The notes beneath the pieces are model-generated. The model made no database searches. It saw only the letters and a list, made by a program, of their open reading frames with translations, and had not been told where the DNA came from. A stretch of DNA of 33,007 bases from Desulfobulbaceae bacterium. GTDB taxonomy: Bacteria; Desulfobacterota; Desulfobulbia; Desulfobulbales; Desulfobulbaceae. The stretch spans positions 1 through 33,007 of the forward strand of contig JABMJC010000014.1 of the NCBI GenBank assembly GCA_013201405.1, read 5' to 3'. Numbering within the stretch: position 1 is the first letter of the stretch; every line of letters begins with the position of its first letter. Position numbers and translations under genes: made by a program. Below, piece after piece: positions 14,455 to 27,282 of this stretch.

Positions 14455-14498
14455 GTGCAGATGTATCTGCACCTATCTAATCGCCTGCCCATGGGCAG
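14455..14498 (+). other. two short perfect palindromes in the leader of the epimerase gene
   Basis: GTGCAGAT/ATCTGCAC spans 14455-14472 with almost no loop. CTGCCCATGGGCAG spans 14485-14498, ending two bases before the ribosome-binding site AGGGAG. They could act as RNA hairpins or as protein-binding half-site pairs. Neither has a T-run, so termination is unlikely. Confidence 0.45.
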
Positions 14499-14511
14499 GA
14501 AGGGAGAATGT

Positions 14512-15537
14512 ATGCAGCATATCCTTATTACCGGCGCAGCCGGCTTTATCGGGCATGCCCTGGGCAAACGGCTTCTTGCCGAGGGGCGTACGGTGGTGGG
14601 CCTTGACAATCTCAATGACTACTATGACGTGCAGCTCAAGCGCGCTCGCCTGGCTGAGCTTGAGGCAAGCCCGCGCTTTACCTTTGTGCATCAGGACATG
14701 GCCGAACGCGCAGCCATGGCCGATCTGTTTCGTAGCCATCAATTCGATGCAGTGGTCAACCTGGCTGCCCAGGCAGGAGTCCGTTATTCGCTGATCAATC
14801 CGGGTGCCTACGTGGATACCAATCTGGTGGGTTTTGTCAACATTCTGGAGGGTTGCCGGCACAGCGGAGTCAAGCATCTGGTGTATGCTTCGTCCAGTTC
14901 CATTTATGGCGCCAATACCAAGATGCCCTTTTCCGAGCACGATACTGTTGACCATCCGGTATCTTTGTATGCAGCCTCCAAAAAGGCCAATGAACTGATG
15001 GCCCACACCTACAGCCATCTCTTTGGTTTACATTGCACAGGCCTACGTTTTTTTACTGTGTACGGGCCCTGGGGACGGCCGGACATGGCGCTTTTCCTCT
15101 TTACCAAGGCCATTTTGGAAGACAAGGCCATCAATGTTTTCAATAATGGCAATATGGAGCGTGATTTCACTTACATTGATGATATTGTCGAAGGGGTGGT
15201 ACGGGTGGTGGACAGGTTACCACAACCTGACCCGAACTGGGATGGCAACGATCCCGATCCGGCCACCAGCTACTGTCCTTGGCGGGTATACAATATCGGT
15301 AACAACAACAAGGAACAGCTGATGCGCTACATCGAGGTGCTGGAGCAGTGCCTGGGACGGACAGCCAAAAAAAACTTCATGCCCATGCAGGCCGGCGACG
15401 TGCCCGCCACCTATGCCGATGTCAGTGCATTGGTGCGGGATGTGGGCTTCCGGCCGAACACTCCCATTGAGGTGGGGGTGCGCCGCTTTGTCGACTGGTA
15501 TCTGCAATACTACAAACCAGAGATTCAAAGGCTCTGA
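14512..15537 (+). CDS. NAD-dependent epimerase, UDP-glucuronate 4-epimerase-like
   Basis: A 341-residue short-chain dehydrogenase of the extended type. The NAD-binding GAAGFIG is at residues 8-14, and the catalytic Tyr153 and Lys157 are in YAASK. The segments [32 protein letters not shown] and [18 protein letters not shown] are characteristic of bacterial UDP-glucuronate 4-epimerases, which make UDP-galacturonate for surface polysaccharide. A plain UDP-glucose 4-epimerase role cannot be excluded. The ATG at 14512 is chosen because AGGGAG (14501-14506) lies five bases upstream and the N-terminus then begins directly at the Rossmann fold. No other sugar genes are adjacent. Confidence 0.88.
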
Positions 15538-16694: not shown

Positions 16695-16723
16695 TTGGCA
16701 AATGTGGGTGTTGTGCCTATAGT
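16695..16723 (+). promoter_or_regulatory. candidate promoter of the TPR/rib/nusB/ftsK operon
   Basis: TTGGCA (16695-16700) and TATAGT (16718-16723) are exactly 17 bases apart and each match five of six consensus positions. This is one of the best promoter-like pairs in the window. It lies about 75 bases before the first gene of a string of closely packed genes. Confidence 0.5.
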
Positions 16724-16799: not shown

Positions 16800-17444
16800 A
16801 TGACAACAACAGCGAAACAGGCTGATTTGAACGAAGTGATTGCCGACCTGGAAAAATTGGTGGCGGAAAAGCCAGATAATGTCATGGCTCGACACCATCT
16901 TGGCCTGGTGTATCGGCGCGTTGGCCGCAGCGACGATGCAGTGACCCAGTTGGAAAAGGCTATCGAATTGGACAACCAGTCCATGGAGAGTATGATTAAT
17001 CTGGGCGCTATTTATTTTGAACGGGGTGATTACGACCGGGCCTTAGATTTGAACCGCCGCGCCTTGCAGGTTTCGCCCAAGATGGCCGAAGCGTATGTCA
17101 ATATCGGCCTCATACTTCAACAGCGTGGCGAAGTGGTGCAAGCTGTTGAGAGCTATATCAGAGCCACCCAACTGGATGCCAAGCTTATTACTGCTTGGTT
17201 GAATTTGGCCTCGGCCTATACTGCCATTGAGGAGGATGCCAAAGCTGTGGAGGCTGCTCGTCAAGCGGTCACCTTGGAGCCGGATTCCCCCATGGCCCAC
17301 AACAATCTGGCCGTGGCTCTTTATTTCAGTGGCGAATACGTCGATGCCCAGCGACACCTTGAACGGGCCAGCGAACTGGGCTACAGTGTTGATCCTCGTT
17401 TTGTGGAAACCTTGCGGGCCAAAGTAGCGGTTGAAAATGAGTAG
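16800..17444 (+). CDS. TPR repeat protein
   Basis: A 214-residue protein made almost wholly of tetratricopeptide repeats. About five 34-residue units run from residue 28 to 197, each with the W/L-G-Y-A-P pattern (for example ARHHLGLVYRRVGRSDDAV and AYVNIGLILQQRGEVVQAV). No signal peptide or membrane helix is seen, so a cytoplasmic protein-protein scaffold is expected. AAGGA (16787-16791) precedes the ATG. Its last codons overlap the start of the next gene, so the products are probably made together. Specific function is not known. Confidence 0.9.
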   Translation: MTTTAKQADLNEVIADLEKLVAEKPDNVMARHHLGLVYRRVGRSDDAVTQLEKAIELDNQSMESMINLGAIYFERGDYDRALDLNRRALQVSPKMAEAYVNIGLILQQRGEVVQAVESYIRATQLDAKLITAWLNLASAYTAIEEDAKAVEAARQAVTLEPDSPMAHNNLAVALYFSGEYVDAQRHLERASELGYSVDPRFVETLRAKVAVENE

Positions 17445-18591
17445 TAAGACAGAGTATCAGCTTAAGCCCTGGTGCCCTTTTTGCGGCATGGATGTAGGGC
17501 GCCCCACCTTTGGGCAGGAGCGCAAGATGCGTGAGTTTCCCATGGGGCGTTGTGAATGCGGGGCAACCTATGTGGCCGAGGCCACCGGCCATAACGTAGG
17601 GGCCGCCATGGTGGAATGCCTGGTGAATGCCTGTGGTGGCAATTGGGATCTGGCCTGGGATCTGCTGCCGGAGGACGATTACCTCGTTGGCCAGATCGAC
17701 GATTATGATGAGGTGACCCACCAGGTGGTGCAGAAGCGCAACTTGGACGGCCGCGCTGTGCGCGGGGTGCTGTACTTTGTGCGTTTACACCGGGATATGG
17801 CTGAATTGGCCAGCCGCTACGAGAAAAAACACGGGCTGAGCACTGCTGGCCCTGCCAATGAGGTGGATGCAGGCAGCGCTCCATTTGCCGGTACGGTCCG
17901 TCGGCTCGATCCGAAACGGAAGCGACAAAAGGCAAATAAAAAAATCGTCCAAGACCTTGTTGGTGAGGGCAACGTTGAGGCCCTGATTGATCTATATTTG
18001 GATGATCGCAGAACCCTGCGTTTTCTGCAGCGTCTGCTCTACACTCCAGATCTGGCAGAGCGTTATCGAACGGCTTGGATCCTCGGCCGAGTGTGCGCAG
18101 AGGGCGCTCAACTTGAACCAGGGCCAGTGGCAGATCTCTTGCACAGGCTTTTTGAGGCTTGCGCTGACTCCGCCTCTTCCTCCTGGGGCATGGTAGAGGG
18201 GATTGGGGCCATCATTGCCAACCGGCCAGATATCTATGGTGCCTTCACCCGGCATCTTTTCGCGTACATGGGCGACCCGGGCACGCGTGAGGCAGTTTTG
18301 TGGGGAATGGGGGAAATCGCCGTATCCCGGCCGGATCTGATCCGCGCCCAGCCGTTTTATTCCCTTTTCCCGGTACTGACCCACGAAAAACCAGTATTGC
18401 GGGCACTTACTGTGCGCCTTCTGGGACGGATACAAGCCAAGGAGGCGGCGCTGCAGATCATGGGCCTAGGCCATGATTACACTGAAGTCGCCATATTCGA
18501 GCAGGGCGGGCTGCGCCACACGACAGTGGCAGAACTTGCCGATGAGGCCCTCCAACACATTCATCAGGAAGAAGAGTATGTCCACAGATAA
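17437..18591 (+). CDS. zinc-knuckle plus HEAT-like repeat protein, sulfate-reducer type, function unknown
   Basis: A 384-residue protein with no known activity. The N-terminus carries a putative metal site, CPFCG (Cys13, Cys16) and CECG (Cys39, Cys41). A conserved-looking stretch rich in acidic and aromatic residues follows (NWDLAWDLLPEDDYLVG). After a basic linker near residues 155-170, helical repeats of HEAT type occupy about 175-375. From memory, the C-terminal half (TLRFLQRLLYTPDLAERY) resembles the DVU0298 family annotated in sulfate reducers; this was not checked. The ATG at 17437 overlaps the upstream TPR gene stop. A TTG at 17431 would add two residues. Flanked by two TPR genes with overlaps on both sides. 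Confidence 0.85.
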   Translation: MSSKTEYQLKPWCPFCGMDVGRPTFGQERKMREFPMGRCECGATYVAEATGHNVGAAMVECLVNACGGNWDLAWDLLPEDDYLVGQIDDYDEVTHQVVQKRNLDGRAVRGVLYFVRLHRDMAELASRYEKKHGLSTAGPANEVDAGSAPFAGTVRRLDPKRKRQKANKKIVQDLVGEGNVEALIDLYLDDRRTLRFLQRLLYTPDLAERYRTAWILGRVCAEGAQLEPGPVADLLHRLFEACADSASSSWGMVEGIGAIIANRPDIYGAFTRHLFAYMGDPGTREAVLWGMGEIAVSRPDLIRAQPFYSLFPVLTHEKPVLRALTVRLLGRIQAKEAALQIMGLGHDYTEVAIFEQGGLRHTTVAELADEALQHIHQEEEYVHR

Positions 18592-19183
18592 TCTCCAACC
18601 ATTGAGCAGCTTGGGTCCCTTGCAGCAGCAGGGCGGCGATGCGGCAGCCGAGGATAATCCGGCTCGCCGCGACTACAAAGAAGCGCGCAGACTTTTTGAC
18701 AAGGGTGAATATGTGCAGGCCGCCATGGGCTTTCATAATGCCCTGCGCGGTTTTGAGGAACAGGGTGATCGTATCGGTGTGGCCAATGCCGCCGATCGGC
18801 TGGGCGATGCCTGTTTTGCACGCGAAGAGTATGCCATGGCCATGGCCAACTTCGAACGGTCACATGCCATCTGTGTTTTGGAAGAAGACAGTTTTTCCCA
18901 ACTCTCTCTCAACAAGAAGATGGTGCAGTGTTGCAGAAAGCTCGGCCAGTATAGCAAGGCTCTGTACCTGCTGGACGATATGCTGGAACACTATCAGCTC
19001 ACCCGTAACCCCAAGGGAGCGGTGGAAACACTGGAAACCCTGGCCGAGTTGTACGTGGAGCAGGGTGAAAAGGAGAAGGCTGCAGACGCCTACCGCTCGG
19101 CCGCAGGTATCCATACCCACTTTAAACATGCCCGCCGCGCCGAGGAGTTGGAACAGTTGGCAGCACAGTTGGAACAGGATTAG
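18578..19183 (+). CDS. TPR repeat protein
   Basis: A 201-residue protein. After a low-complexity, Gln/Ala-rich start (1-27) come roughly four to five TPR-like helix pairs (residues 31-198), for instance YKEARRLFDKGEYVQAAMGF and ETLAELYVEQGEKEKAADAY. It has the longer 40-residue spacing seen in TPR_12-type units. No secretion signal was found. The ATG at 18578 lies inside the end of the previous gene, preceded by GGAAGAAG. The frame is open upstream to 18473, but that part is a shadow of the HEAT-like gene. ribE begins three bases after the stop. Function unknown. Confidence 0.87.
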   Translation: MSTDNLQPLSSLGPLQQQGGDAAAEDNPARRDYKEARRLFDKGEYVQAAMGFHNALRGFEEQGDRIGVANAADRLGDACFAREEYAMAMANFERSHAICVLEEDSFSQLSLNKKMVQCCRKLGQYSKALYLLDDMLEHYQLTRNPKGAVETLETLAELYVEQGEKEKAADAYRSAAGIHTHFKHARRAEELEQLAAQLEQD

Positions 19184-19186
19184 TTG

Positions 19187-19837
19187 ATGTTTACCGGTAT
19201 TGTCCAAGGGGTGGGCACGGTGCTGGCGCGCCACACCACTGGCGGCGGAACAGTGTTAACTCTGGCGCCTAACTTTACCTTGGATGAGCCGCAGGAGGGC
19301 GAATCCATTGCCGTTGATGGGGTGTGTCTGACAGCACGTGCTATCAGCCCGGATCGGTTTTCCGCGGATGTATCCCCAGAAACCCTGCAGCGCAGCAGTT
19401 TGGGGCAACTGCGCACCGGTTCCCGGGTAAACCTGGAACGGGCCCTGCGCCTGGCCGACCGTCTGGGCGGCCATTTGGTTAGCGGCCATGTGGATTGCAT
19501 GGGCAGGGTGCTCAAGCGGCAGAATCTGGGTGATTTTACCCTGTTCACTTTCTCTATGGATGCGCGCTTGGGCCGCTATGTGGTGGAAAAAGGTTCAGTG
19601 GCCATTAGCGGTGTCAGCCTTACTGTGAACAGTTGCGCAGAGGCCTCATTTTCGGTGTCGATCATCCCCCATACCTTGAGGGAGACTACCTTGGGCCTTT
19701 TGGCCGTGGGCGATGCGGTGAATATCGAGGTGGATATCATTGGTAAATATGTGGAGAAACTGCTGGGCGGCCGTTTGTCCCAGCCAGCCGGACAGGTGCT
19801 TGATTCGGCTTTTCTTGCCCGGCACGGGTTTATGTAA
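19187..19837 (+). CDS. ribE: riboflavin synthase alpha chain
   Basis: Dismutates two molecules of 6,7-dimethyl-8-ribityllumazine into riboflavin. The 216-residue protein has two tandem lumazine-binding domains. The first begins MFTGIVQGVGTV and the second LVSGHVDCMGRVL near residue 97. Internal repeats of the type DGVCLTA and SGVSLTVN mark both halves. ATG at 19187 is preferred to the TTG one codon upstream because AGGA (19176-19179) is then seven bases away. The lumazine substrate is made by RibH, encoded two genes downstream. A ribD gene, often placed just before this one, is missing here. Confidence 0.96.
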   Translation: MFTGIVQGVGTVLARHTTGGGTVLTLAPNFTLDEPQEGESIAVDGVCLTARAISPDRFSADVSPETLQRSSLGQLRTGSRVNLERALRLADRLGGHLVSGHVDCMGRVLKRQNLGDFTLFTFSMDARLGRYVVEKGSVAISGVSLTVNSCAEASFSVSIIPHTLRETTLGLLAVGDAVNIEVDIIGKYVEKLLGGRLSQPAGQVLDSAFLARHGFM

Positions 19838-25266: not shown

Positions 25267-27282
25267 ATGGCATTGCCAAATAAGCCGAAAGGCGAACTCG
25301 AAGCAGTAGTCGATCCGGAAATCGTAGAGCACAGCTGTGATGTGCTGATCGTAGGTGGCGGTATGGCTGCCTGTGGTACTGCTTTTGAAATTAAGAAGTG
25401 GGCGCCTGAAGACATGAAGATCATTCTGGTCGACAAGGCTGCCTTGGAGCGTTCCGGCGCCGTTGCTCAGGGTCTTTCTGCCATCAATACCTATATCGGT
25501 GAAAACGCCATTGAAGACTATGTCAAGATGGTACGTAATGACCTGATGGGTGTAGTTCGTGAAGACCTGATCTATGATCTTGGTCGTCACGTTGACGAGT
25601 CGGTCAAGCTGTTTGAAGAGTGGGGTCTGCCCATCTGGAAGCGCGCCGAAGATGGTAGTGCATTGGGTGGCGACAAGCCTGCCAAGACCCTGCGTGAGGG
25701 TGGCACGCCTGTACGTACCGGCAAGTGGCAGATCATGATTAACGGTGAGTCGTACAAGCCGGTTGTTGCCGAGCCTGCCAAAAAGGCCTTGGGTGAGGAA
25801 AACATTCACGAGCGTGTATTCATCGTCAAGATGCTGCTTGACAAGAACAAGGAAAACACCATCGCTGGTGCAGTAGGTTTCTCTACCCGCGAAAACAAGG
25901 TGTATGTCTATACCTGTAAGGCCGCCATGGTGGCCTGCGGTGGTGCGGTAAACATCTTCCGCCCGCGCTCTACCGGTGAAGGTAAGGGCCGTGCATGGTA
26001 TCCGGTATGGAACGCTGGTTCCACCTACACCATGTGTGCGCAGGTTGGTGCAACTTTGACCATGATGGAAAACCGTTTCACACCGTCCCGCTTTAAAGAT
26101 GGTTATGGTCCGGTTGGCGCATGGTTCCTTCTGTTCAAGGCCAAGCTGCAGAACGGTTTGGGCGAGTTCTATGCCAACAGCCCCGAGGTCAAGGAAGAAT
26201 TGGCCAAGTTTATGCCCTATGGTCAGTCTGCAGTAACCCCGACCTGTTTGCGTAACCACCTGATGCTCAACGAGCTGAAGGCTGGTCGTGGCCCCATCTA
26301 CATGGCCACTGACGTTGCTCTGAACGCCTTTTTGGAAGAGCAGCGCGCTGCTGGTAAGGACGAGAAGGAAGTCAAGAGGATGTGGAAACACTTAGAGTCC
26401 GAAGCATGGGAAAACTTTTTGGATATGTCCGTTGGTCAGGCTGGACTCTGGGCCGGCATGAACATCGAACCCGAAAAGGTTGGCTCTGAGATCATGCCGA
26501 CCGAACCGTACATGCTGGGCTCTCACTCTGGCTGTTGCGGCATCTGGACCTCCGGTCCTGAAGAGGACTGGGTGCCAACGGTTGATGGCCCGCGTTCCCA
26601 TCAGTACAAGTGGGGCTACAACCGTATGACCACGGTTAACGGCCTGTTCACCGCCGGTGACGGTGTTGGTGCATCTGGTCACAAGTTCTCCTCCGGCTCC
26701 CATGCCGAAGGCCGTATTGGTGCCAAGCAGATGGTCAAGTACTGCCGCGACAATGCAGATTTCAAACCGGAATTGGCACAATCTGCCAAGGAACTGGCCG
26801 ATGAGATCTATGCACCGGTACGCTTGTATCATGAGCACAAGGGTGCCTCTACTGCAGCAGACGTGAACCCCCACTACGTCAAGCCTTCTGGCCTGATGAT
26901 GCGTCTGATGAAGGCTACCGACGAGTATGGTGGTGGCGTGGCTACCTATTACATGACTTCTGGTAAGCTGCTCAATATCTGTCTGGATTTGCTCCGTCTC
27001 CTGCGTGAAGACGCCGAGAAGATGGCTGCCGGCGATCTGCATGAGCTGCTGCGCGTCTGGGAAAACTACCACCGCATCTGGTGTGTGGAGACGCACATCC
27101 GTCACATTGAGTTCCGGAAAGAGTCCCGCTATCCGGGCTTCTACTATCGCTCTGACTATCCGACTTGCGATGATGAAAACTGGAGAGTTTTTGTCAACTC
27201 CACCTTCGATCCGAAGACCCAGGAGTGGAAGTGCGAGAAGGTCGAGTGTATCAACATCATTGAGACAGATCCTTGGATTTAA
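25267..27282 (+). CDS. aprA: adenylylsulfate (APS) reductase alpha subunit
   Basis: FAD-containing catalytic subunit that reduces APS to sulfite and AMP, the second step of sulfate respiration. The 671-residue protein has the N-terminal dinucleotide fold DVLIVGGGMAACG (GGG at 30-32), RSGAVAQGLSAINTYIGENA, and GVGASGHKFSSGSHAEGRIG. These are typical of the fumarate reductase-like AprA family, and the length is standard. AAAAGGAG lies before the ATG. Codons such as GGT, CGT and GTT seem more frequent than in neighbouring genes, as expected for a very abundant protein. It ends in a strong terminator. The reverse direction (sulfite oxidation) is used in sulfur oxidisers; the Qmo genes and overall context favour sulfate reduction or sulfur disproportionation. 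Confidence 0.98.
   Translation: MALPNKPKGELEAVVDPEIVEHSCDVLIVGGGMAACGTAFEIKKWAPEDMKIILVDKAALERSGAVAQGLSAINTYIGENAIEDYVKMVRNDLMGVVREDLIYDLGRHVDESVKLFEEWGLPIWKRAEDGSALGGDKPAKTLREGGTPVRTGKWQIMINGESYKPVVAEPAKKALGEENIHERVFIVKMLLDKNKENTIAGAVGFSTRENKVYVYTCKAAMVACGGAVNIFRPRSTGEGKGRAWYPVWNAGSTYTMCAQVGATLTMMENRFTPSRFKDGYGPVGAWFLLFKAKLQNGLGEFYANSPEVKEELAKFMPYGQSAVTPTCLRNHLMLNELKAGRGPIYMATDVALNAFLEEQRAAGKDEKEVKRMWKHLESEAWENFLDMSVGQAGLWAGMNIEPEKVGSEIMPTEPYMLGSHSGCCGIWTSGPEEDWVPTVDGPRSHQYKWGYNRMTTVNGLFTAGDGVGASGHKFSSGSHAEGRIGAKQMVKYCRDNADFKPELAQSAKELADEIYAPVRLYHEHKGASTAADVNPHYVKPSGLMMRLMKATDEYGGGVATYYMTSGKLLNICLDLLRLLREDAEKMAAGDLHELLRVWENYHRIWCVETHIRHIEFRKESRYPGFYYRSDYPTCDDENWRVFVNSTFDPKTQEWKCEKVECINIIETDPWI

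Follow-up and report, generated by a model that had tools for sequence, protein, structure and literature searches.

Three overlapping genes that precede ribE in a 33,007-nucleotide stretch of a Desulfobulbaceae genome (the window) very probably serve the reductive Dsr (dissimilatory sulfite reductase) system as an accessory module. DsrAB, the enzyme of that system, catalyses the step of sulfate respiration in which sulfide is formed, and this respiration is a major part of the anaerobic sulfur and carbon cycles. Assembly of DsrAB or loading of its cofactors is put forward as the role of this module, tentatively and with somewhat less than an even chance. The analysis was computational and covered the integrity of the genes, their co-conservation, the fusion of zh with tprC, the linkage of these genes to dsrABD and dsrN, and the presence of dsrAB in carriers without detectable aprA.

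The three genes, designated here tprA (16800-17444, 214 aa), zh (17437-18591, 384 aa) and tprC (18578-19183, 201 aa), all lie on the forward strand. They overlap at their starts and stops as the first-pass annotation had reported, with 8 bases shared by tprA and zh (ATG at 17437) and 14 bases by zh and tprC. The gap of three bases between the end of tprC (19183) and the ATG of ribE (19187; 19184-19837, forward strand), a local neighbour that lies outside the module, was likewise found as described. Further surroundings are ribF upstream and ribBA, ribH and nusB downstream, followed from 25267 on by an apr-qmo cluster that begins with aprA (25267-27282, forward strand; 944 bits with TIGR02061) ca. 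6 kb downstream of the trio. When compared to a congener (G005), dN/dS was 0.03 for tprA, 0.11 for zh, 0.08 for tprC and 0.09 for ribE, all of which are rough values because dS is near saturation. The trio consists of real genes that are kept by purifying selection. The "good promoter" that was said to precede them did not hold up: the best sigma-70-like site upstream is TTGGCA-17-TATAGT (16695-16723), and the two such sites found in the region are at chance level when compared to the 1.9 expected from shuffled sequence. Elsewhere, a nucleotide-sugar epimerase gene occupies positions 14455-15537 of the window, between a tatC-like gene and ribF, in a section that is otherwise of a housekeeping nature.

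All three products are of the scaffold type, as had been noted from their sequences, with TPR repeats in the products of tprA (Pfam TPR) and tprC (Pfam TPR_12; alignments A2 and A7) and HEAT repeats in the C-terminal half of that of zh. The latter is made of an N-terminal domain (residues ca. 9-120) and a HEAT solenoid (ca. 158-383), and its residues 171-373 match the whole NCBIfam model NF045662 (182.4 bits for a cut-off of 75; model positions 2-213 of 213), which describes the DVU0298 family of HEAT proteins of unknown function. The N-terminal domain falls outside this model and distinguishes zh from the shorter HEAT-only paralogs of ca. 240 aa that occur in the same genomes; such paralogs are found elsewhere in most genomes (for instance at G000:C81:3317-3619). 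The CxxC/CxC site previously pointed out in the middle protein corresponds to Cys13-x2-Cys16 (CPFC) and Cys39-x-Cys41 (CEC), encoded within 17473-17558 on the forward strand; the four cysteines are invariant across 60 aligned relatives and represent a putative metal site. In sequence searches the domain had no Pfam family and no clear relative in the PDB, its matches to zinc ribbons were weak and the window protein received no family assignment from them; it is an undescribed CxxC/CxC domain that may bind a metal. The AlphaFold model of zh (mean pLDDT 90.2) predicts a mixed N-terminal domain that holds the four cysteines, a disordered linker (residues 136-148) and the HEAT solenoid. In PDB and Foldseek/VIA searches with this model, the matches listed were all HEAT/ARM solenoids and covered residues 155-384, the solenoid having filled the listing; they point to a binding surface and say nothing of function.

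The trio behaves as a unit. The order tprA-zh-tprC and the adjacency of the genes are kept in 28 of 29 loci from relatives, and in the 29th the contig ends before tprC. The tprA products share the C-terminal signature LG[FY]xVxPxF and, with a profile built for this family (A9), scored 256-342 bits in eight genomes in which the next TPR protein reached at most 98 bits, a gap that identifies a specific ortholog rather than a random TPR match. In several other families zh and tprC are fused into a single protein of 572-578 aa with tprC at the C terminus of zh, which supports a physical association; the model of the fused protein has a pLDDT of 90.3 within domains, with a pTM of 0.54 that leaves the relative placement of the domains loose. 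A complex had been suggested from fixed stoichiometry and gene order; the conserved order and the fusion bear out the behaviour as a unit, and the three proteins probably associate physically. The unit proposed in the first-pass annotation is real, and a complex tied to sulfate reducers was rightly suspected.

In a sample of 395 genomes of the phylum, 75 carry a full-length zh. Among these, 72 have dsrA (Fisher p 5.5e-23, a value that ignores relatedness) and 72 have aprA, in agreement with the tie to sulfate reducers that had been noted for the family of the middle protein. Since dsrA and aprA themselves co-occur (both are present in 156 genomes), counts of zh alone cannot separate the two partners. 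The three zh genomes without aprA (G040, G226 and G236) all have dsrA, whereas dsrA is absent from three others, two of them with a completeness of just 62-67% and one (G339) a 97% complete draft. Beyond the phylum, Moorella sulfitireducens and M. mulderi possess zh, tprA and dsrAB and gave no aprA match at E 1e-50 in their draft genomes; M. stamsii has dsrA and a single aprA match that falls below the family cut-off, and no aprA match was obtained in the draft of Desulfotomaculum copahuensis, from which the gene may have been missed. The occurrence of zh therefore extends past aprA-bearing genomes (G040, G226, G236 and the first two Moorella, as judged from drafts). Carriers that are dsrA-positive and aprA-negative are strong hints that the partner is the Dsr system rather than APS reductase, with the proviso that drafts can miss genes. 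Co-occurrence of the trio with aprA and continued adjacency had been proposed as a check; adjacency is retained in 28 of the 29 loci from relatives and aprA accompanies most carriers, but these exceptions depart from it.

Conversely, full-length zh is missing from 118 of the 190 dsrA-positive genomes, so that DsrAB can be made without it, and ca. 98 of these also lack the N-domain. Family f53, which we guess to be Desulfovibrionaceae, shows the best aprA scores and has no full-length zh. A search restricted to the N-domain detected it in 95 genomes, and ca. 20 genomes, mainly of families f20 and f64, have it as a separate short protein in an open frame of ca. 115-180 aa. No dsr genes were found beside the stand-alone N-domain in the four f20/f64 loci examined (L095, L096, L097 and L098), and in genome G055 it lies 15 kb from dsrA. 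Another stand-alone copy (G324:C28:268-594) belongs to a genome without dsrA or aprA matches, for which contamination or loss of the pathway is possible.

Within the phylum, the genes around zh encode DsrA and DsrB (NIR_SIR domains), DsrD (PF08679), DsrN-type CbiA/GATase_3 proteins and CxxCxxCC proteins, along with zinc ribbons of the FmdB type; YcaO-TPR proteins are also encoded there in some cases. The starts of zh and dsrA are 2.2-6.6 kb apart in 31 of the 57 zh-positive genomes in which the place of dsrA was listed, when well under one such case would be expected by chance among 57 genomes of 2-5 Mb. Families rather than genomes were taken as the more independent observations, and the linkage was found in ten of them (f3, f5, f30, f42, f46, f51, f61, f62, f90 and f104), f3 and f5 belonging to the window's own order. 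Overall, zh and tprA are located 2-7 kb from dsrABD in at least 10 families of the phylum and in Bacillota (Desulfotruncus, Desulfocucumis and Moorella), often with dsrN. From family to family the module varies in its strand and in its order with respect to dsrAB, so the linkage does not reflect a single frozen block. The genome that contains the window has the trio and dsrA on separate contigs (G000:C162 and C68, respectively), and its dsrABD locus is devoid of the trio.

The zh alignment was also scanned over 84,980 species genomes, which yielded 316 relatives, the best 80 of which were taken as named loci. These 80 include the Bacillota Desulfocucumis palustris, Desulfotruncus alcoholivorax, D. 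arcticus and Desulfotomaculum copahuensis, the three Moorella species mentioned above and a MAG labelled Armatimonadetes. Among the best 80 of 316, tprA occurs within 10 kb of zh in 68 loci, many of the others being truncated by the contig, dsrA or dsrB within 10 kb in 46, Bacillota included, and dsrN, the siroheme amidase gene, near zh in 34. A common gene order is FmdB zinc ribbon, zh, CxxCxxCC protein, tprA, dsrD, dsrB and dsrA. By profile, tprC was found in only 20 of these best 80 loci and was not detected in most dsr-linked loci of Bacillota and many other lineages; zh and tprA form the wider core, and only part of the Desulfobacterota has the complete trio as a trait.

Several other genes recur at these loci. 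In the best 80 of 316, an FmdB-type zinc ribbon (Zn_ribbon_8) occurs just upstream of zh in 45 loci (e.g. L148:9697-9966), a CxxCxxCC protein (PF03692) of ca. 210 aa between zh and tprA or dsrD in 47 (e.g. L084:11592-12218), and a protein of ca. 360-400 aa, designated c6, directly after zh in many dsr loci, 27 in all (e.g. L076:7898-9043, reverse strand); the c6 family had no match in Pfam or NCBIfam. YcaO-domain TPR proteins are found near zh in a few dsr loci (L069:131-1594, L102 and L105), and in some Bacillota a second, HEAT-only relative of zh is located beyond dsrA (L129, ca. 16954; L122, ca. 16663).

The window itself would suggest other readings. A flavin-related or flavoenzyme-assembly scaffold of the riboflavin operon was suggested, as speculation, in the first-pass annotation, and the trio is indeed tightly coupled to ribE in the window and its close relatives, with the flavoenzyme genes of apr-qmo nearby. 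The trio was also said to take the usual place of ribD, which is correct for its position only, as ribD is present on another contig of the genome (G000:C13). In relatives of the same genus ribE follows the block, but at several loci of the order's other families rib genes are missing while the block is intact; adjacency of ribE to the trio is confined to the family of the window and a small number of related families, and linkage to rib was seen in Desulfobulbales only. Among the best 80 of 316 relatives, ribE is near zh in 12 named loci, all Desulfobulbaceae or their relatives by label, so that rib linkage does not follow the module wherever it occurs. Distant lineages have dsrABD and dsrN as neighbours instead, some carriers have dsrA without detectable aprA, the flavoenzyme gene of the pathway, and most of the phylum sample has no module at all (75 of 395 genomes carry zh). 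A riboflavin role as main function was rejected on the confinement of rib linkage to Desulfobulbales, and a flavin scaffold is highly improbable. The setting among riboflavin genes results from a local relocation and is misleading as to function; in part of the Desulfobulbales, the trio would have left the dsr locus and come to lie between ribF and ribE, close to apr-qmo. An accessory module of APS reductase or of the Qmo complex would agree with the 72 aprA-bearing carriers and with the 7.5-9 kb that separate aprA from the module in the window's family. That aprA count is uninformative given how strongly aprA and dsrA co-occur, and the reading is disfavoured by the five carriers, two of them Moorella, that have dsrA without detectable aprA; we regard it as quite unlikely. 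Finally, TPR and HEAT repeats are common and their profiles cross-match, as a chance grouping of generic repeat-protein genes would have it, but specific orthologs score far above the other TPR proteins of the same genomes, order is kept over distant families, zh and tprC are fused and purifying selection is strong. These observations refute such a grouping, the probability of which is negligible.

As for what the module does within the Dsr system, zh would be a metal-binding HEAT scaffold acting with both TPR proteins, and together they may hold a folding or assembly intermediate of DsrAB during siroheme/[4Fe-4S] loading or the joining of subunits. The architecture, zinc-ribbon-like, HEAT and TPR, suits the binding of a protein client, and a metal-site HEAT scaffold with TPR partners beside the genes of the enzyme and of siroheme amidase fits a holding or loading factor. 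A bolder form of this proposal, doubtful at present, is a dedicated DsrAB maturation complex of at least two phyla that distinguishes one of two routes to the enzyme, other sulfate reducers doing without it. The trio might also regulate or organise the working Dsr system as a scaffold, modulating DsrAB or joining it with DsrD, DsrC or DsrMK(JOP). This possibility, to which we give less than one chance in two by a clear distance, fits nearly as well as an assembly role: tprA is often directly beside dsrD, work cited in PMC13047784 describes DsrD as activating DsrAB allosterically, and TPR and HEAT proteins are commonly scaffolds. A scaffold alone, however, leaves the conserved cysteine domain unaccounted for, as it does the recurrence of dsrN and CxxCxxCC proteins as neighbours. 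A pathway tied to Dsr that modifies a peptide or cofactor, with YcaO-TPR, zinc-ribbon and CxxCxxCC proteins and the trio presenting the substrate, is unlikely. The YcaO-domain TPR proteins beside zh in a few loci and the effect of one such protein, DVU2210, on molybdate sensitivity in D. vulgaris (PMC7774982) are in line with it, but only 4 of the best 80 of 316 loci have YcaO near zh, and a DVU2210 deletion grew normally on sulfate (PMC7774982).

The assembly role preferred here has a parallel in NarJ and TorD, which are dedicated maturation chaperones of redox enzymes. The likeness concerns the proposed role only, that is, holding the apo-enzyme until the metal cofactor would be in place; neither zh nor tprC matched a NarJ or TorD family of Pfam, their complete match lists consisting of HEAT, TPR and weak unrelated matches. 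Other than the siroheme amidase DsrN, no dedicated factor for DsrAB assembly is known to have been described. A gene set that is conserved, dsr-linked and unnamed is a concrete candidate for one; it would account for neighbours that are uncharacterised at many dsr loci, improve on annotations such as "TPR protein" or "HEAT protein", and allow one to test why such genes are needed in some lineages and not in others. DsrN, a CbiA/CobB homolog, is itself conserved as an accessory of the Dsr pathway, and its gene often lies beside dsrAB (PMC10504309), as it often does beside zh, but it is a tetrapyrrole amidase whereas no enzyme domain is recognised in the trio. Like the trio, dsrD is a non-catalytic accessory gene linked to dsrAB, and it adjoins tprA in many loci; its product is a winged-helix protein of ca. 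80 aa (PF08679) with no similarity to the trio.

A study of Dsr synteny deals with DsrAB, DsrC, DsrMKJOP, DsrEFH, DsrL and DsrN and does not mention TPR or HEAT proteins (PMC10504309), nor are such genes mentioned in the passages found in a survey of 950 dsrAB genomes (PMC10591310) and of a comparison of cable bacteria (PMC13047784). In the open-licence literature, no description was found of the trio, of DVU0298 or of TPR/HEAT genes near dsrAB, the sole mention of DVU0298 being an entry in a CO-dehydrogenase table. An older fosmid study (J Bacteriol 2005) reportedly dealt with clustered genes of sulfate respiration, and the genes may have been noticed earlier as "conserved hypothetical". For Moorella, one dsrAB copy of M. 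thermoacetica is described as flanked by dsrD and DsrMKJOP genes (PMC10504309). M. sulfitireducens has, within 7 kb of its main dsrAB, a second and divergent dsrAB pair accompanied by dsrN (L148:18877-21077).
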